DNA of 64,000 nt from Moraxella sp. VT-16-12 (GTDB lineage Bacteria > Pseudomonadota > Gammaproteobacteria > Pseudomonadales > Moraxellaceae), in contig NZ_NKHK02000001.1 of assembly GCF_002224245.2 (NCBI RefSeq), positions 62,001 through 126,000 on the forward strand, in the 5' to 3' direction. Below, piece after piece: positions 15,615-25,539 of this stretch (within the stretch, counting starts at the first letter, position 1; every line of letters begins with the position of its first letter). Position numbers and translations under genes: made by a program. The notes beneath the pieces were generated by a model. It did no database searches. It was given only the letters and a program-made list of their open reading frames with translations, and had not been told where the DNA came from.

Positions 15615-18600
15615 ATGAATACAAGTTTATTTTCATCATTCACTCGCCAATATCCAGTTACCAAAACCTTGCGTTTTGAATTAAAACCAATGGGTGCGAC
15701 ATTGGGGCACATTCAGCAAAAAGGTTTTTTACACAAAGATGAAGAGCTGGCAAAAATTTACAAAAAAATCAAAGAACTGCTTGATGAGTATCATCGGGCG
15801 TTTATTGCAGATACGCTGGGCGATGCTCAGCTTGTGGGCTTGGATGATTTTTATGCAGATTATCAAGCACTCAAACAAGACAGTAAAAACAGTCATCTAA
15901 AAGATAAGCTCACCAAAACCCAAGACAATTTACGCAAACAAATCACCAAAAATTTTGAAAAAACACCACAGCTTAAAGAACGCTATAAGCGTTTGTTTAC
16001 TAAGGAGCTGTTTAAAGCTGGTAAGGATAAAGGAGATTTGGAAAAATGGCTGATAAATCATGACAGTGAGCCAAATAAGGCAGAAAAAATCTCATGGATT
16101 CATCAATTTGAAAATTTTACCACCTATTTTCAAGGATTTTATGAAAATCGCAAAAATATGTACAGTGATGAAGTCAAACATACTGCCATTGCTTATCGTT
16201 TAATCCATGAAAATTTGCCACGCTTTGTTGATAATATACAAGTTTTATCCAAAATCAAATCGGATTATCCTGATTTATATCACGAATTGAATCATTTGGA
16301 CAGTCGCACGATTGATTTTGCTGATTTTAAGTTTGATGATATGTTACAGATGGATTTTTATCATCATCTGCTTATCCAATCAGGCATCACCGCTTATAAT
16401 ACGCTTTTGGGCGGTAAAGTATTAGAAGGTGGTAAAAAGTTGCAAGGCATCAATGAGTTAATAAATCTATATGGTCAAAAACATAAAATTAAGATTGCAA
16501 AATTAAAGCCTTTGCACAAACAAATATTAAGTGATGGACAAAGCGTCTCATTTTTGCCCAAAAAGTTTGATAATGATTATGAATTGTGCCAAACTGTCAA
16601 TCATTTTTATCGTGAATATGTGGCTATTTTTGATGAGCTGGTGGTTTTATTTCAAAAATTTTATGATTATGACAAAGACAACATATATATCAACCATCAA
16701 CAGCTCAATCAACTATCGCATGAGTTATTTGCTGATTTTAGGTTATTATCACGTGCGTTGGACTTTTATTATTGTCAGATAATTGATGGTGATTTTAATA
16801 ATAAAATCAACAACGCCAAAAGCCAAAATGCCAAAGAAAAATTATTAAAAGAAAAAGAGCGATACACCAAATCAAATCATAGCATCAATGAATTGCAAAA
16901 GGCAATCAACCACTATGCCAGTCATCATGAAGACACAGAAGTTAAAGTCATTAGTGATTATTTTTCAGCGACAAACATTCGTAATATGATTGATGGCATT
17001 CATCATCATTTTAGTACAATCAAAGGTTTTTTGGAAAAGGATAATAACCAAGGCGAGAGTTATCTGCCCAAACAAAAAAACAGCAATGACGTTAAAAATT
17101 TAAAATTATTTTTAGATGGTGTTTTGCGACTGATTCATTTTATCAAACCTTTGGCATTAAAATCAGATGATACCCTAGAAAAAGAAGAGCATTTTTATGG
17201 GGAGTTTATGCCTTTGTATGATAAATTGGTAATGTTTACGCTGCTGTATAATAAAGTGCGTGATTATATTAGTCAAAAACCCTATAATGATGAAAAAATC
17301 AAACTCAACTTTGGCAATTCAACTTTATTAAATGGTTGGGATGTCAATAAAGAAAAAGATAATTTTGGGGTGATATTATGCAAAGAGGGTTTGTATTATT
17401 TGGCGATTTTAGATAAATCCCACAAAAAAGTCTTTGATAATGCACCAAAAGCAACCAGTAGCCACACATATCAAAAGATGGTATATAAGCTACTGCCAGG
17501 ACCTAATAAAATGCTGCCCAAAGTGTTTTTTGCAAAAAGTAATATTGGTTATTATCAGCCATCGGCACAATTATTAGAAAACTATGAAAAAGGCACACAC
17601 AAAAAAGGCAGTAATTTTAGTTTAACAGACTGTCATCATTTGATTGATTTTTTTAAATCCAGCATTGCCAAGCATCCAGAGTGGAAAGAGTTTGGTTTTA
17701 GATTTTCTGACACTCACACTTATCAGGATTTAAGTGATTTTTATAAAGAGATAGAGCCGCAATCTTATAAAGTTAAGTTTATTGATATTGATGCTGATTA
17801 TATTGATGATTTGGTTGAAAAAGGTCAATTATATCTGTTTCAATTATACAATAAAGATTTTTCAAAGCAATCTTATGGTAAACCAAATCTGCACACCTTA
17901 TATTTTAAGTCATTGTTTAGTGATGATAATCTCAAAAATCCGATTTATAAACTCAATGGCGAAGCTGAGATATTTTATCGCCGTGCTTCATTGAGTGTGT
18001 CTGATACGACCATTCATCAAGCAGGAGAAATATTAACACCCAAAAATCCCAATAATACCCATAATCGCACATTAAGTTATGATGTGATTAAAAATAAACG
18101 CTATACAACAGATAAGTTTTTTCTGCACATACCGATTACCATGAACTTTGGTATAGAAAATACAGGATTTAAAGCATTTAATCATCAAGTCAATACCACT
18201 TTAAAAAACGCTGATAAAAAAGATGTGCATATCATCGGTATTGACCGTGGAGAAAGACATTTGTTGTATGTCAGCGTGATTGATGGCGATGGTCGTATTG
18301 TGGAGCAGCGAACGTTAAATGATATTGTATCCATTTCTAATAATGGCATGAGCATGAGTACGCCGTATCATCAGATATTGGATAACAGAGAAAAAGAGCG
18401 TTTGGCGGCTCGCACCGATTGGGGGGATATTAAAAATATCAAAGAATTAAAGGCAGGGTATTTAAGTCATGTGGTGCATGAAGTGGTGCAGATGATGTTA
18501 AAATATAATGCCATGATTGTTTTGGAAGATTTAAATTTTGGTTTTAAACATGGTCGCTTTAAGGTGGAAAAGCAAGTTTATCAAAATTTTGAAAATGCAT

Positions 18601-19400
18601 TGATTAAAAAATTAAATTATTTGGTATTAAAAAACGCTGATAATCACCAGCTAGGTTCTGTGCGTAAGGCTTTGCAATTAACCAATAATTTTACCGACAT
18701 AAAAAGTATTGGCAAACAAACAGGGTTTATTTTTTATGTGCCAGCATGGAATACCAGTAAAATAGACCCAACCACAGGTTTTGTGGATTTGTTAAAACCC
18801 CGTTATGAAAATATGGCACAGGCTCAAAGTTTTATCAGCAGGTTTAAAAAGATTGCTTATAATCATCAGCTTGATTATTTTGAATTTGAGTTTGATTATG
18901 CCGATTTTTATCAAAAAACGATAGATAAAAAACGTATTTGGACTTTATGCACTTATGGTGATGTGCGTTATTATTATGACCATAAAACTAAAGAAACAAA
19001 GACCGTTAATATTACCAAAGAGTTAAAATCATTGTTGGATAAGCATGATTTAAGTTATCAAAATGGTCATAATTTGGTAGATGAGCTGGCAAATTCTCAC
19101 GACAAGTCATTATTAAGTGGCGTGATGTATTTATTAAAAGTTTTGTTGGCATTAAGATATAGTCATGCTCAAAAAAATGAAGATTTTATTTTATCCCCTG
19201 TGATGAATAAAGATGGTGTGTTTTTTGACAGTAGATTTGCTGATGATGTGTTGCCAAATAATGCTGATGCAAATGGTGCTTATCATATTGCTTTAAAGGG
19301 ATTATGGGTGCTCAATCAAATCCAATCTGCCGATAATATGGATAAGATTGATTTGAGCATCTCTAATGAGCAGTGGCTACACTTTACACAAAGCCGCTAA
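15615..19400 (+). CDS. cas12a: Cas12a (Cpf1), type V-A CRISPR effector nuclease
   Basis: A 1261-residue single-protein effector that processes its own crRNA and cuts DNA next to a T-rich PAM. The RuvC residues are D877 (IIGIDRGERHLLY), E971 (IVLEDLNFGFKHGRF) and D1218 (NADANGAYHIALKG). The Nuc-domain arginine is R1181 (LLALRYSHA). The crRNA-processing region keeps H801 (TTIHQAGE) and the following Lys/Asn patch. The PAM-recognition segment LLNGWDVNKEKDNFGVIL is present. Length and sequence resemble Moraxella bovoculi Cas12a, with a visibly divergent N-terminal REC region (MNTSLFSSFTRQYPVTKTLRFELKP). AGGAAA lies before the ATG. First gene of cas12a-cas4-cas1-cas2, but a terminator follows it. 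Confidence 0.98.
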   Translation: MNTSLFSSFTRQYPVTKTLRFELKPMGATLGHIQQKGFLHKDEELAKIYKKIKELLDEYHRAFIADTLGDAQLVGLDDFYADYQALKQDSKNSHLKDKLTKTQDNLRKQITKNFEKTPQLKERYKRLFTKELFKAGKDKGDLEKWLINHDSEPNKAEKISWIHQFENFTTYFQGFYENRKNMYSDEVKHTAIAYRLIHENLPRFVDNIQVLSKIKSDYPDLYHELNHLDSRTIDFADFKFDDMLQMDFYHHLLIQSGITAYNTLLGGKVLEGGKKLQGINELINLYGQKHKIKIAKLKPLHKQILSDGQSVSFLPKKFDNDYELCQTVNHFYREYVAIFDELVVLFQKFYDYDKDNIYINHQQLNQLSHELFADFRLLSRALDFYYCQIIDGDFNNKINNAKSQNAKEKLLKEKERYTKSNHSINELQKAINHYASHHEDTEVKVISDYFSATNIRNMIDGIHHHFSTIKGFLEKDNNQGESYLPKQKNSNDVKNLKLFLDGVLRLIHFIKPLALKSDDTLEKEEHFYGEFMPLYDKLVMFTLLYNKVRDYISQKPYNDEKIKLNFGNSTLLNGWDVNKEKDNFGVILCKEGLYYLAILDKSHKKVFDNAPKATSSHTYQKMVYKLLPGPNKMLPKVFFAKSNIGYYQPSAQLLENYEKGTHKKGSNFSLTDCHHLIDFFKSSIAKHPEWKEFGFRFSDTHTYQDLSDFYKEIEPQSYKVKFIDIDADYIDDLVEKGQLYLFQLYNKDFSKQSYGKPNLHTLYFKSLFSDDNLKNPIYKLNGEAEIFYRRASLSVSDTTIHQAGEILTPKNPNNTHNRTLSYDVIKNKRYTTDKFFLHIPITMNFGIENTGFKAFNHQVNTTLKNADKKDVHIIGIDRGERHLLYVSVIDGDGRIVEQRTLNDIVSISNNGMSMSTPYHQILDNREKERLAARTDWGDIKNIKELKAGYLSHVVHEVVQMMLKYNAMIVLEDLNFGFKHGRFKVEKQVYQNFENALIKKLNYLVLKNADNHQLGSVRKALQLTNNFTDIKSIGKQTGFIFYVPAWNTSKIDPTTGFVDLLKPRYENMAQAQSFISRFKKIAYNHQLDYFEFEFDYADFYQKTIDKKRIWTLCTYGDVRYYYDHKTKETKTVNITKELKSLLDKHDLSYQNGHNLVDELANSHDKSLLSGVMYLLKVLLALRYSHAQKNEDFILSPVMNKDGVFFDSRFADDVLPNNADANGAYHIALKGLWVLNQIQSADNMDKIDLSISNEQWLHFTQSR

Positions 19401-19456: not shown

Positions 19457-20020
19457 ATGGAATACCATACTTTAAATATCAGTCAATTAAATGATTTTGT
19501 CTTTTGTCCTTATTCTATTTATCTGCATACGGTATATCAAACCCTTGATGATGACAATTATTATGATTTACCACAAATTAAAGGTAAATATGCTCACCAA
19601 ACAGTCGATGATGGCACATACAGTACCAAAAAATCTGTGATAACAGGTATGATGGTGTATTCAGAGTATTATGGTTTGGTTGGGCGGATTGACCAATATT
19701 TTTTTGATGATAAAAAGTTGGTGGAGAGAAAACGTAGCATTAAAACAATCTATGATGGTTATAAATTACAACTTTATGCACAGTATTTTTGCATGATAGA
19801 AATGGGATTTGTGATAGATAAACTTGGGTTTTATTCTATGGTGGATAATAAAAGCTATCCATTAGCGATACCTGATGATAAAACAATCCATTGGTTTGAA
19901 ACACATCTTAATCACATTCGTCAGTATCAGCCATTAGATACCCATGTTCATATCAATGAGAATAAATGCCAGCATTGTATTTATTGTCCATTATGCGATA
20001 AAACAACTTTGTTAATTTAA
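19457..20020 (+). CDS. cas4: Cas4 nuclease (spacer acquisition)
   Basis: A 187-residue Cas4 of the RecB-nuclease superfamily, which trims prespacers and helps select PAM-flanked DNA. It has the iron-sulfur cysteines: C17 near the N-terminus (FVFCPYSIYLH) and the C-terminal cluster C171, C174, C177, C180 (KCQHCIYCPLCDK). The nuclease motifs are H47 (GKYAHQ), D79 (GLVGRIDQ), E90-x-K92 (LVERKRS) and QLYAQY. The ATG at 19457 follows a weak ribosome site. It sits between cas12a and cas1 in standard V-A order, 14 bp before the cas1 start. Confidence 0.95.
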   Translation: MEYHTLNISQLNDFVFCPYSIYLHTVYQTLDDDNYYDLPQIKGKYAHQTVDDGTYSTKKSVITGMMVYSEYYGLVGRIDQYFFDDKKLVERKRSIKTIYDGYKLQLYAQYFCMIEMGFVIDKLGFYSMVDNKSYPLAIPDDKTIHWFETHLNHIRQYQPLDTHVHINENKCQHCIYCPLCDKTTLLI

Positions 20021-20034
20021 TAAAAGGAGTGATT

Positions 20035-21039
20035 ATGCTAACAACAGCAGATATATATCATCGTCAAGTGGTGTTATTAAACACATTGGAAAATAAATAT
20101 CACTTGTGTATCATACAAGGCAATTTGGTGATTAAAAATAATGATGAGATATTAACCCGCATTTCTAAACAACAAGCCTTTGCAGTGATGGTGATTGGTA
20201 ATTGCAGTATTACTAGTGTGATGATTGATTATTGTCAAAAGTATGGTATTGCCTTAGTGTTGCTTAATAGCAGATTAAGACCAATATTATTTGCCAGTCT
20301 AAGTGGTGAAGCAAATTTTTTATTGCGTCAAAAGCAATATCTATCAACAAAAATCATTCACCAAAAGATTGCCAATCATCTGGTTTATAATAAAATATAT
20401 AATCACATACAACTTATTAAGAACATTCGTCAAAAAGATGATATTATCAAAAAATCCATCATTGATTTGAGTGATTATCAAGATAAATGTTATGGTATGG
20501 AGCAATTAGATGGTTTGATGGGTATTGAAGGAAATGCTGCTAGAATGTATTTTAAATGCTATTTTGGTCAATTAAAACACCATACATGGCAAAGTAGAAA
20601 ACCAAGACTGAAAATAGACCCCATCAATGTAGTTTTGGATATGGGTTATACGTTACTGTTTAATTATATGGAAGCAAATTTGCGATTGTTTGGCTTTGAT
20701 GTGTATAAAGGAATGTTGCACCAATTGTGGTTTAAGCGTAAATCTTTGGTTTGTGATTTTGTAGAGCCATTTCGCTGTATTATTGACAGACAAGTGCTTA
20801 TTGCTTTTAATCTTGGTCAGTTTAGGTCGGAGCATTTTAGTCAAGTCAAAATGCAATATCAGCTAAAAAACAAACACAGCAAAGAGTATCATGCGATTTT
20901 GATGAAATCAATTATTGAATATAAAATGGAGATATTTATTTATGTTCGTGATTTTTATCGAGCCATTATGAAAATGTCAGAAAATAATATTGATGTGCCA
21001 TTACCTTTGTTTGATATCAATATAAAACATCAGGAGTGA
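20035..21039 (+). CDS. cas1: Cas1 integrase
   Basis: A 334-residue Cas1, the integrase that inserts new spacers at the leader end. The metal-binding triad is visible: E165 (GLMGIEGNAAR), H229 (GMLHQLWFKRKSLV) and D241 (CDFVEPFR). I start at the ATG at 20035 because AAAAGGAG ends five bases before it; a GTG two codons earlier overlaps that site. The stop is followed after 3 bp by cas2, with the cas2 ribosome site (AGGAGTG) overlapping the cas1 stop, so the two are translationally coupled. Confidence 0.97.
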   Translation: MLTTADIYHRQVVLLNTLENKYHLCIIQGNLVIKNNDEILTRISKQQAFAVMVIGNCSITSVMIDYCQKYGIALVLLNSRLRPILFASLSGEANFLLRQKQYLSTKIIHQKIANHLVYNKIYNHIQLIKNIRQKDDIIKKSIIDLSDYQDKCYGMEQLDGLMGIEGNAARMYFKCYFGQLKHHTWQSRKPRLKIDPINVVLDMGYTLLFNYMEANLRLFGFDVYKGMLHQLWFKRKSLVCDFVEPFRCIIDRQVLIAFNLGQFRSEHFSQVKMQYQLKNKHSKEYHAILMKSIIEYKMEIFIYVRDFYRAIMKMSENNIDVPLPLFDINIKHQE

Positions 21040-21042
21040 TTT

Positions 21043-21312
21043 ATGATTATTGTAAGTTATGATATTAGTAATGATAAAGTACGAAGTAAATTTTCTAAAT
21101 TTTTATTAGAATATGGCGACCGATTGCAATATTCGGTTTATGAGATTCAAAATAGCGATAGAGTGCTAAATATGATTACTGAAAAAATAAAAGTGGAGTT
21201 TGAGCCGCTTTTTACCAATGCAGATAGTGTGATGGTCTTTCGTTTTAATCAAAGAGAAGTGTTAAGATTTGGCAATGCTTTGCATAAAAAAGAGAGCTTG
21301 TTGGTGTTATAA
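21043..21312 (+). CDS. cas2: Cas2, adaptation complex subunit
   Basis: An 89-residue Cas2 with the ferredoxin-like start MIIVSYDISNDKVRSKFSKFLLEYGDRLQYSVYEI, matching the family's Y-D-I-x-x-x-k-R and G-x-x-x-Q-x-S-V-f-E signatures. It forms the Cas1-Cas2 integration complex. Three bases separate it from cas1. The leader and array begin 167 bp after its stop. Confidence 0.96.
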   Translation: MIIVSYDISNDKVRSKFSKFLLEYGDRLQYSVYEIQNSDRVLNMITEKIKVEFEPLFTNADSVMVFRFNQREVLRFGNALHKKESLLVL

Positions 21313-21326
21313 ATATGTGTTATAAT
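21298..21326 (+). promoter_or_regulatory. Likely CRISPR array promoter
   Basis: A perfect -10 TATAAT (21321-21326) lies 17 bp after TTGTTG (21298-21303), inside the end of cas2. Transcription would start near 21333 and read about 147 bases of leader into the array, producing pre-crRNA on the plus strand, the orientation required by the repeat hairpin. Confidence 0.65.
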
Positions 21327-21479
21327 AAACAAGTTTTCATAATAAAAATGGACTAAGGATAAAATTGCAAACCTAAGTCTTCCTATGAAAATTTGATTGT
21401 TTTGGGAGTGAATATGACAAATTTTGTTTGCTATATAGACAAAAAATGTTTAAAAAGTAATAATTTTTGCCCAAAACGG
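21313..21479 (+). promoter_or_regulatory. CRISPR leader
   Basis: 167 bp, AT-rich, between cas2 and the first repeat. An inverted repeat TTTTCATA/TATGAAAA (21334-21341, 21384-21391), with a weaker inner pairing of GGACTAAGG against CCTAAGTCTTCC, can form a long hairpin in the transcript just after the predicted start. A small ORF with a good ribosome site follows. The leader position on the cas2 side fits integration of new spacers at the first repeat. Confidence 0.75.
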
Positions 21480-21485
21480 GTCTAA
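21414..21485 (+). CDS. Possible 23-residue leader peptide ORF
   Basis: ATG with TTTGGGAGTGA just upstream. It encodes MTNFVCYIDKKCLKSNNFCP followed by KRV and then TAA. The stop codon is inside the first CRISPR repeat (GTCTAA). Three cysteines and many lysines; no family recognised. It could be translated from the array transcript or be chance; the well-placed ribosome site is the only support. Confidence 0.3.
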   Translation: MTNFVCYIDKKCLKSNNFCPKRV

Positions 21486-24400
21486 CGACCTTTAAAATTT
21501 CTACTATTTGTAGATTCACACCGCACCGACATTTATGAGACATGTCTAACGACCTTTAAAATTTCTACTATTTGTAGATGCATTACCGATGAGACCATGC
21601 CATTTTTAGTCTAACGACCTTTAAAATTTCTACTATTTGTAGATCCAAATTTGGCGATTTGGTCGGATAATGTGGTCTAACGACCTTTAAAATTTCTACT
21701 ATTTGTAGATCGCCAAGTGGGGGTCATCCATGATATTTGTCTAACGACCTTTAAAATTTCTACTATTTGTAGATGATTATTGACGTGGGCAATGAGTGGT
21801 TTGTCTAACGACCTTTAAAATTTCTACTATTTGTAGATTTTTTGGAAAAAATTGGCTGATTTTTGTCTAACGACCTTTAAAATTTCTACTATTTGTAGAT
21901 TGTGGCAGCGGCGATTGAATCCATCGTGTCTAACGACCTTTAAAATTTCTACTATTTGTAGATCTTGCCATCTGTGGCAATGGGGACATGGGTCTAACGA
22001 CCTTTAAAATTTCTACTATTTGTAGATAGAGCTGGGTTTTTCGCCAACTTGATAAGTCTAACGACCTTTAAAATTTCTACTATTTGTAGATCAGGTTTTT
22101 TATTGCAAAAACTAATCGTCTAACGACCTTTAAAATTTCTACTATTTGTAGATTTCTAACAGTTCAAAATTTGACATATAGTCTAACGACCTTTAAAATT
22201 TCTACTATTTGTAGATGAACCATGACTTTCGAGTACTGGGATAAGTCTAACGACCTTTAAAATTTCTACTATTTGTAGATAACTCGTTGGGTATCGCCAT
22301 GCTGTCAGCGTCTAACGACCTTTAAAATTTCTACTATTTGTAGATCCCATTCTTTGCGGTGATGGTCTTGAGTCTAACGACCTTTAAAATTTCTACTATT
22401 TGTAGATCCATTCTAACTGTTGGCGGTGGCGTACGTCTAACGACCTTTAAAATTTCTACTATTTGTAGATTTAATGTCGGTAGAGATGGAAACTATTCGT
22501 CTAACGACCTTTAAAATTTCTACTATTTGTAGATATCCGTACACTTGTTCAGGCTATGGTAAGTCTAACGACCTTTAAAATTTCTACTATTTGTAGATTA
22601 AAAAAATATAAAAAACTATTGACGCAGTCTAACGACCTTTAAAATTTCTACTATTTGTAGATAGTCTGATGGCGTGCATATCATTCGTGTCTAACGACCT
22701 TTAAAATTTCTACTATTTGTAGATCATGGCAATAAGCTCCAAACTGTTCAAAGTCTAACGACCTTTAAAATTTCTACTATTTGTAGATATTTTTCGCATC
22801 TATCACGCTCGTTTGGTCTAACGACCTTTAAAATTTCTACTATTTGTAGATTATTCACCAGTTTGGACATCGACCAATGTCTAACGACCTTTAAAATTTC
22901 TACTATTTGTAGATATTTTTTCGCTTGCTCTTTGCTTTTCTGCTGTCTAACGACCTTTAAAATTTCTACTATTTGTAGATAAACATTTGTTTTAATAACA
23001 ATGTTTTTGTCTAACGACCTTTAAAATTTCTACTATTTGTAGATCCATTTACCTTGTTTGAATTCGCTGTCCGTCTAACGACCTTTAAAATTTCTACTAT
23101 TTGTAGATTTTGATTTATGTTTGGCTTGGGGGATAGGTCTAACGACCTTTAAAATTTCTACTATTTGTAGATGGATTCCCAAACAGGTTTGTGGTTGGTG
23201 TCTAACGACCTTTAAAATTTCTACTATTTGTAGATACGATGCCCCATAAATAGCATCGGGGCGTCTAACGACCTTTAAAATTTCTACTATTTGTAGATTG
23301 CGATAGTCGGCGGTATGGTCAGTATGTCTAACGACCTTTAAAATTTCTACTATTTGTAGATTACTTATCACAGTCTGGCGTTTCATCATGTCTAACGACC
23401 TTTAAAATTTCTACTATTTGTAGATCTTTGCAGGTATTGTATTTACCCCTATCAAGTCTAACGACCTTTAAAATTTCTACTATTTGTAGATGTCAGCTCG
23501 TCAATGGTAACACCCATGGTCTAACGACCTTTAAAATTTCTACTATTTGTAGATAAAAGGAGCAAAAATAATATAGTTTATTGTCTAACGACCTTTAAAA
23601 TTTCTACTATTTGTAGATGGTTTGCCGTGCAAAAATCGCTGATATGTCTAACGACCTTTAAAATTTCTACTATTTGTAGATGCGACAAGCTTAGGGCGAC
23701 CGTCCTTGTGTCTAACGATCTTTAAAATTTCTACTATTTGTAGATCTCAGCGTTTTTTATTGCTAATAAGATAGTCTAACGACCTTTAAAATTTCTACTA
23801 TTTGTAGATGCTCTTACCCTGACCAGATGGGGCTACGTCTAACGACCTTTAAAATTTCTACTATTTGTAGATGCAAGCAATGCCCTGCTGATGTCTCGGG
23901 TCTAACGACCTTTAAAATTTCTACTATTTGTAGATTATCATGGATAGGTTGTGTGGTGGCTCAGTCTAACGACCTTTAAAATTTCTACTATTTGTAGATC
24001 AGGAAGTCGCTAAACTTGCTGAACTGTCTAACGACCTTTAAAATTTCTACTATTTGTAGATTCCTTGACAATCGGCTCGGAGATTTCGTGTCTAACGACC
24101 TTTAAAATTTCTACTATTTGTAGATCGCAGAACAAGTGGGAAATACATGGGCGTCTAACGACCTTTAAAATTTCTACTATTTGTAGATATGTCAGGGTGG
24201 TCAGCTCGTTGAATTGCGGTCTAACGACCTTTAAAATTTCTACTATTTGTAGATTTTTTTGGTGATGATTATGCAAGAACACGGTCTAACGACCTTTAAA
24301 ATTTCTACTATTTGTAGATCCATCATGGTTCAGCTTTATCATTTTGGTCTAACGACCTTTAAAATTTCTACTATTTGTAGATGTGCTGTGTGATAAGATT

Positions 24401-25539
24401 AAGAGCGGTTGTCTAACGACCTTTAAAATTTCTACTATTTGTAGATATGTTACCTGCTTTGGCAAGGTCTCTGGTCTAACGACCTTTAAAATTTCTACTA
24501 TTTGTAGATGTTTGTATCAAAAACAGCTCATCAGCTAGTCTAACGACCTTTAAAATTTCTACTATTTGTAGATTGTGATTGGCACTTTACTGTCTGCTAA
24601 GGTCTAACGACCTTTAAAATTTCTACTATTTGTAGATCTCCTAAAATCGCAAGACTTCAAGCCATTGTCTAACGACCTTTAAAATTTCTACTATTTGTAG
24701 ATTCATCAATGAACTTCGCTTTTCTGTCAAAGTCTAACGACCTTTAAAATTTCTACTATTTGTAGATCATGGATTATCTCTTTACTGCATGGTTGTCTAA
24801 CGACCTTTAAAATTTCTACTATTTGTAGATTTCATATCCCAGACAAAGTGGGCGAGATGATAAAGTGTCTAACGACCTTTAAAATTTCTACTATTTGTAG
24901 ATTTCATATCCTCGCTCGATGAGTTCCTGAAGTCTAACGACCTTTAAAATTTCTACTATTTGTAGATAGAGCGGATTTTGTCCACTGTATCAGGTCTAAC
25001 GACCTTTAAAATTTCTACTATTTGTAGATGTAGCTTACCGCTCCCAAACAGACGCGTCTAACGACCTTTAAAATTTCTACTATTTGTAGATCCATCTACA
25101 CGCACTTACCATCTACCCAGTCTAACGACCTTTAAAATTTCTACTATTTGTAGATTTAGACGCACACACAAACAAAAAATGCGTCTAACGACCTTTAAAA
25201 TTTCTACTATTTGTAGATTTATCAGGCATCTAGCCACAACCTTAACTGCGTCTAACGACCTTTAAAATTTCTACTATTTGTAGATCAATTAAAGCTAGAC
25301 ATCATCAACAAAGTCTAACGACCTTTAAAATTTCTACTATTTGTAGATGTGCAGAAGCTCAACAACCAAGATGACGTCTAACGACCTTTAAAATTTCTAC
25401 TATTTGTAGATTGCCAAATCATTCAAAGCAGTTATCTTATGTCTAACGACCTTTAAAATTTCTACTATTTGTAGATTTCATGATAACGTCATTGGAGGTG
25501 TGGGTCTAACGACCTTTAAAATTTCCACCACTATAAATT
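21480..25539 (+). CRISPR. Type V-A CRISPR array, 64 repeats, 63 spacers
   Basis: Repeats are 36 bp, beginning GTCTAACGACC and ending in the Cas12a handle hairpin TCTACTATTTGTAGA plus T. Hand counting gives 63 spacers, average about 28 bp (26-31, with one of 36), and the summed length agrees with the span. All repeats look identical except one C-to-T change in the repeat at 23710 (position 23719, outside the handle) and the last repeat. The last repeat (25504-25539) keeps its first 22 bases but loses the hairpin (CCACCACTATAAATTG). This marks the distal end. The leader is on the cas2 side. Open reading frames across the array are artefacts of the repeat. Confidence 0.99.

Follow-up and report, generated by a model that had tools for sequence, protein, structure and literature searches.

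A type V-A clustered regularly interspaced short palindromic repeats (CRISPR) array at positions 21480..25539 (plus strand) of a Moraxella genome contains five spacers that match the organism's own chromosome but probably do not target it, judging from where the TTTV protospacer-adjacent motif (PAM) lies beside each match. The window analysed, a stretch of 64,000 nucleotides (nt), corresponds to C11:62001-126000 of a 2.15-Mb draft assembly in 60 contigs. In this array and in those of related genomes, the TTTV at non-phage self targets is mostly displaced by a few nucleotides and never in register. We give a probability of roughly 70% to the explanation that adaptation would slip past the PAM at TTTV sites, combined with an active Cas12a that would remove cells carrying in-register self spacers. 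The array comprises 64 repeats and 63 unique spacers, with its leader end at 21480, and lies directly 3' of cas12a-cas4-cas1-cas2, which excludes chance as the source of the repeats. It is real and ordinary in kind, and its informative feature is the register of the self matches.

The comparison set consisted of genomes of the same genus, one per species (G001-G021). Nine arrays of the genus yielded 168 spacers, and 166 of these, from the arrays of the window, G001, G004, G005, G009, G010, G011 and G016, were compared with every one of the 22 genus genomes, the array's own among them, leaving out the two spacers parsed from G002. The limit was an E-value of 0.01, extended to values up to 10 for the search of the window array against its own genome. 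In some genomes the first-look candidates were scored in part (20 of 28 for G016 against itself), making the match lists lower bounds. The own-genome search returned exact or one-mismatch matches for spacers S01, S03, S07, S10, S19 and S26, the last of which falls in a phage-like element discussed below. Spacer S01 (21516..21543, plus strand) exactly matches a gluQ-RS-type gene at C60:32200-32227 with TTTC displaced by 2; the encoded protein of 308 amino acids (aa) has a class I tRNA synthetase catalytic domain in Pfam and was taken as gluQ-RS. Likewise exact are S03 (21645..21674, plus strand) in glnE at C3:39432-39461 (Pfam GlnE), with TTTA displaced by 1, and S07 (21901..21927, plus strand) in the RNase E/G gene rne at C43:144389-144415 (Pfam RNase E/G), which has no TTTV near the PAM position. 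The 3' flank of the latter target begins AAAT, and S07 might be a flipped spacer. The fourth exact match, of S10 (22092..22117, plus strand), is to C7:16645-16670, where a gene of 91 codons ends, and has TTTA displaced by 2; this gene gave a sub-threshold match to DUF6726 and appears lipoprotein-like. Finally, S19 (22663..22688, plus strand) matches a glmS-type gene at C58:138305-138330 with one mismatch (position 2) and TTTC displaced by 3, the target being taken as glmS from its SIS and GATase domains in Pfam. Self-targeting calls for two features, and an exact or near-exact chromosomal match is present for all five spacers (S01, S03, S07 and S10 exact, S19 with one mismatch), but an in-register PAM is found at none of the five chromosomal targets.

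These spacers occupy positions 1, 3, 7, 10 and 19 of the 63 (21516-22688), near the leader (p = 3.7e-4). The other arrays lack such a skew, their self spacers being number 11 of 16, 7 of 18, and 6 and 9 of 17. The self targets of these arrays comprise an IS605 OrfB/TnpB-type gene (G001_11), a plasmid-type Rep gene (G009_07), a HAD hydrolase gene that is probably serB (G016_06) and an MbnB/TglH/ChrH-family gene (G016_09). The G001 spacer matches its transposon-type gene (on G001:C45) exactly with the PAM displaced by 2, and similar gene copies occur in other genomes of the genus. Self matches are thus unevenly spread: 5/63 in the window, 2/17 in G016, 1/16 in G001, 1/18 in G009 and 0/52 over G004, G005, G010 and G011 together. 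The total of 9/166 can be compared, loosely given that the method differs, with the 0.4% of self-targeting spacers in nature quoted in a type I-F paper (PMC5059440). Separately, four short adjoining matches to part of the G005 array stretch were seen at G009:C19:11447-11550.

To read the register, protospacers were scanned with up to four mismatches, keeping the best match per spacer for own and other genomes separately; the scan covered the stretches retrieved up to then, with later loci lying outside it. It gave 31 rows, 11 own and 20 other. Excluding the own rows of S26 and S30, both in phage-like elements, leaves nine non-phage self targets, and dropping three other rows whose spacer also has an own match (S03, S30 and G001_11) leaves 17 spacers with targets only elsewhere. 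All nine self targets have 0-1 mismatch (five from the window, one from G001, one from G009 and two from G016). TTTV is in register at none of them, displaced by +1 to +3 at seven, and not nearby at two (S07 and G016_06). Among the 17 spacers with targets elsewhere, TTTV is in register for nine, displaced for two (S60 and G004_25) and missing for six, one of which (G004_21, with four mismatches) is probably a chance match. The in-register share thus differs between the two groups (0/9 versus 9/17, Fisher p = 0.0094). Over 305,802 positions of own-genome stretches, TTTV occurs in register at a background rate of 2.5% and with a displacement of 1-3 at 7.5%; the displaced class is in excess both in the window (4/5, p = 1.5e-4) and in the pooled set (7/9, p = 4e-7). 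When the own and other groups are taken together, the TTTV motifs cluster between shifts 0 and +3 and are absent at +4 and +5, and none of the 31 scanned rows has one at -3 to -1.

These distributions bear on whether PAM choice is simply relaxed or absent, as with a weak Cas4, in which case nothing would slip and the adjoining TTTV would be a matter of chance in AT-rich DNA. The two self targets and six others without TTTV nearby would suit such a view, but chance would bring a displaced TTTV within 3 nt at 7.5% of targets and not at seven of nine, nor would it confine the motif to 0 to +3 and leave -3 to -1, +4 and +5 empty. Since Cas4 is, in addition, unbroken and 67-68% identical to the Cas4 of two relatives, a relaxed PAM choice is very unlikely.

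Slipped adaptation with survivorship, the explanation we prefer, would start with new spacers entering at the leader on the cas2 side, where Cas4-Cas1-Cas2 would choose TTTV protospacers from host DNA as well as from mobile DNA. Trimming of the prespacer would sometimes run 1-3 nt beyond its PAM-proximal end; the target of the resulting spacer would then have a displaced TTTV, and Cas12a should not license it. With Cas12a active, cells with in-register self spacers would be lost, so that the self spacers that persist would be the out-of-register ones. The array, the unbroken cas genes, the exact self matches and the displaced TTTV are directly observed; the slip at trimming, the activity of Cas12a and the loss of in-register self spacers through selection are our inferences. 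Parts of this scheme have precedents. In the type V-A system of F. novicida, Cas4 is needed for TTTV choice in adaptation, and the share of chromosomal spacers drops when Cas12 is present (PMC9419969). In type I-F, slips of up to 3 nt are on record and canonical PAMs are less frequent among chromosomal spacers, a pattern read as survival of non-lethal acquisitions (PMC5059440). The spacers of the Pectobacterium I-F system therein resemble those described here in lying a few nucleotides off the canonical PAM and in having fewer canonical PAMs at chromosomal targets; however, they were acquired in the laboratory, whereas the present arrays are natural V-A arrays in which all displacements go in one direction (PMC5059440). 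For type V-A, no report of slipping was found in the literature searched, which is not proof of absence, and the word 'slip' does not occur in the accessible portions of PMC9419969 and PMC13034035. Slipped self spacers, known from type I-F, are hereby extended to natural V-A arrays. It may further be that own DNA is kept harmlessly in Moraxella V-A arrays mainly through slipping past the PAM, given that about one spacer in twenty (9/166) is a self spacer, although we would place this at somewhat less than even odds.

Moraxella is naturally competent, and the self-like spacers could also derive from the DNA of kin, either transforming DNA or mobile elements, instead of from the host chromosome itself. 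Besides this competence, such a source is suggested by S03, which also matches single places in five other genus genomes with 1-4 mismatches. Yet it is the own-genome match that is exact (0 mismatches), which fits self DNA or same-species DNA, the two being indistinguishable here, and an origin from kin seems rather unlikely.

Several points count against slipped adaptation with survivorship. The samples are small throughout, and the +1 to +3 range was chosen after seeing the window array (4/5). The independent self targets from other arrays number only four; three of them are slipped, and one of the four belongs to a transposon gene and another to a plasmid-type gene. Two of the nine self targets have no TTTV nearby, and because two of the elsewhere spacers are slipped and 6/17 lack TTTV, the out-of-register state is not confined to self. 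Four of the eight searched genus arrays (G004, G005, G010 and G011, with 52 spacers) hold no self match. Outside the genus, a V-A array of the same class (G129, 26 repeats) gave no own-genome match at E-values up to 0.5, and its spacers gave two weak matches at an E-value of 0.047. Finally, TTTV is assumed as the PAM, and a relaxed PAM of the window Cas12a would weaken the register argument.

Prophage-borne inhibitors offer another way in which self spacers might be tolerated. In M. bovoculi, Acr proteins were found via self-targeting spacers (PMC6990116), and three V-A RNA anti-CRISPRs (Racrs), RacrVA1-3, inhibit the V-A system of that species (PMC10651486). The genome studied here has a resident prophage on contig C58 that encodes an integrase, terminase, tape measure, major tail protein, Erf and antirepressor (PHROGs) and corresponds to viral contig IMGVR_UViG_2882316996_000002, with a terminase that is 100% identical. 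Two solitary V-A repeats are found in this mobile element, away from the array. The first (C58:11739-11775, plus strand) has a TAAAAT box 9 nt upstream and is flanked by the major tail and tail terminator genes; the second (C58:30967-31002, minus strand), with its TAAAAT box 7 nt upstream, is flanked by the Erf and antirepressor genes. Like the Racr units of PMC10651486, they take the form of a prophage-borne solitary V-A repeat behind a promoter-like box, and they are candidate anti-CRISPR RNAs. If these units, possibly with AcrVA proteins, held Cas12a off, in-register self spacers would be expected, but all five chromosomal targets, with 0-1 mismatch, lack an in-register TTTV, and the sole in-register own match with at most one mismatch (S26) has a seed mismatch and sits in a phage-like contig. 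No target found here requires inhibition of Cas12a, and we regard inhibitors as an unlikely cause of the self spacers.

The solitary repeats belong to a wider set of 18 units surveyed in 25 loci, which were chosen since searches had flagged repeat-like matches in them. A -10-like box (at least 5/6) precedes 9/18 units, compared with 4.7% of random positions, several units being homologous. In folds of 62 nt, an arbitrary length, the handle hairpin is kept in one C58 unit and lost in the minimum-energy structure of the other, and this predicted loss speaks against that other unit being a perfect repeat mimic. A role of the solitary repeats as guides was also considered, as 2/18 units have an 8-9 nt seed match beside TTTV in their own locus. 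This role is not favoured because both seed matches lie in a duplicated gene-start segment (judged by eye) and the pseudo-spacers of homologous units differ. In another viral contig (IMGVR_UViG_2900194776_000001, stretch L056:9694-9808), tandem promoter-repeat units are followed by extra handle fragments, as if a unit had been duplicated.

The first-pass annotation had regarded the array as a long, active record of infections to be mined for phages and plasmids and proposed to compare the spacers with phage, plasmid and Moraxella genomes and to derive the PAM from the flanks. That view is only partly borne out. The whole array gave no convincing match in 50,697 phage records or in 72,556 plasmid records, sets that may leave out records very near the own genome; seven records of each kind, at E-values of about 1-4 and from unrelated hosts or unnamed samples, were treated as chance. 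The clearest matches are those to own housekeeping genes; mobile targets are few and either degenerate or resident (S26, S30, S31 and S47). As for the flanks, TTTV is in register for S26, S30 and S31. Spacer S26 (23109..23136, plus strand) has an in-register TTTA and one mismatch (position 2) to contig C8 of the own genome (6274 bp), which encodes a phage replication protein, a Zot-family protein and a minor head protein and was taken as inovirus-like. The replication protein had no relatives among the viral contigs searched. A single mismatch at seed position 2 beside an in-register TTTA is what an escape variant would show. Spacer S30 (23362..23389, plus strand), with TTTG and four mismatches, matches the resident C58 prophage where a minor tail gene begins, and S31 (23426..23455, plus strand), with TTTC and two mismatches, a site beside a phage-type regulator gene on G003:C13. 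With three mismatches each, S47 has no TTTV at its target in a long viral-contig gene that looks like a tape measure gene, and S60 a displaced TTTV at its target in a 424-codon gene of G018. Partial own matches were also noted for S31 at C6:1202 (six mismatches), S53 at C58:124984 (six) and S60 at C33:78333 (five); in these the mismatches are concentrated toward the 5' (seed) end, and all three were left out of the self count.

The array consists of 64 copies of the 36-nt repeat GTCTAACGACCTTTAAAATTTCTACTATTTGTAGAT, of which 62 are exact, the others being a sole internal variant with one C to T change (23710..23745, plus strand) and a degenerate terminal repeat (25504-25539) with eight mismatches in its 3' part. 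All 63 spacers differ from one another, and their lengths range from 26 to 36 nt. The first-pass description of 64 repeats with one internal point variant, a degenerate last copy and all-different spacers thus holds. Its emphasis on minimal repeat decay is correct as regards uniformity, but this is not distinctive, as five other genus arrays are likewise uniform, with identical complete repeats in G001 (16/16), G011 (13/13), G004 (29/29), G016 (18/18) and G009 (16/18). A broken last repeat also occurs in related genus arrays, and repeat uniformity is usual for V-A arrays of the genus. What is unusual is the size, 64 repeats compared with 5-29 complete repeats in seven other genus arrays, a range that excludes the fragmented array of G002, the eighth.

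The locus follows a malate synthase gene. It begins with cas12a (15615..19400, plus strand), identified from Pfam, relatives in PDB and residues, whose 1261-aa product has all five expected Pfam families (REC1, REC2, PI, RuvC and Nuc) spread across its length. The triad candidates D877, E971 and D1218 are presumably the three RuvC catalytic residues expected of the Cas12a family. Among solved structures, the best relative is PDB 6iv6 (1261-aa chain), and the nearest named genome match, in a comparison that may leave out very near genomes, is Moraxella oculi Tifton1 with 59% in the best segment, which agrees with the genus Moraxella as previously assigned. Next come cas4 (19457..20020, plus strand; 187 aa; identified by Pfam and by comparison, G004 and G016 being the two relatives mentioned above), cas1 (20029..21039, plus strand; 336 aa; Pfam) and cas2 (21043..21312, plus strand; 89 aa; Pfam and sequence), all three with unbroken reading frames. 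The catalytic residues and the unbroken cas1, cas2 and cas4 are consistent with active Cas12a and adaptation. The leader (21313..21479, plus strand) ends at its 3' side in CCCAAAACGG(G), and CCCAAAACGG also precedes the first repeat in related arrays with at most one letter changed, which places the leader, and hence the newest spacers, at 21480. The full-length Cas12a with five domains, the adjacent cas4, cas1 and cas2 and the V-A handle in the repeat support the type V-A assignment. The system is similar to the V-A (Cas12a/Cpf1) system of M. bovoculi in having Cas12a with cas4, cas1, cas2 and an array, a 36-nt repeat ending in the AATTTCTACT...GTAGAT handle, and possibly the TTTV PAM, which is in register for 9/17 spacers of the genus with targets only elsewhere. 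It differs in that its Cas12a is a diverged ortholog in a locus placed after malate synthase, and in that no creR-like unit was detected upstream of cas12a, whereas five related genomes have one.

In these five relatives (G001, G005, G010, G011 and G016), the pseudo-spacer of a promoter-repeat unit agrees over 9-13 nt with a site close by that adjoins TTTA, and G011 shows matching changes. The matched site lies just upstream of cas12a in G001 and G016 as seen from reading frames, and in G005, G010 and G011 by similarity. From their sequences, the units are of the CreR kind already described for type V-A (PMC13131331, PMC12737573). They are like the CreR RNAs of these papers in having a pseudo-spacer that matches a TTTA-flanked site upstream of cas12a, while the window's own locus differs in that none was detected: the top score of a repeat-like local alignment outside the array is 24, and none of 29 promoter seeds stands behind a handle in the window. 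Nor did the array spacers show a 5' match of at least 7 nt to the 29 promoter seeds, and no CreR-like unit was found in the stretch examined in G004. A similar candidate match was seen in G002, and one chance-looking 9-nt promoter-seed match without a repeat in prophage stretch L009.

Self-matching spacers serve as a flag for hidden anti-CRISPRs. The present genome, with five self spacers and Racr-like units in a prophage, looks explainable by PAM register alone, and a register check of each self match is a cheap filter ahead of any inhibitor search. If slipping is indeed the chief way in which own DNA stays harmlessly in these arrays, the register of self spacers would be a readable trace of Cas12a activity during array growth in any sequenced genome. 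This trace would be readable even where prophages carry anti-CRISPRs and could provide a sequence-only test of past Cas12a activity.

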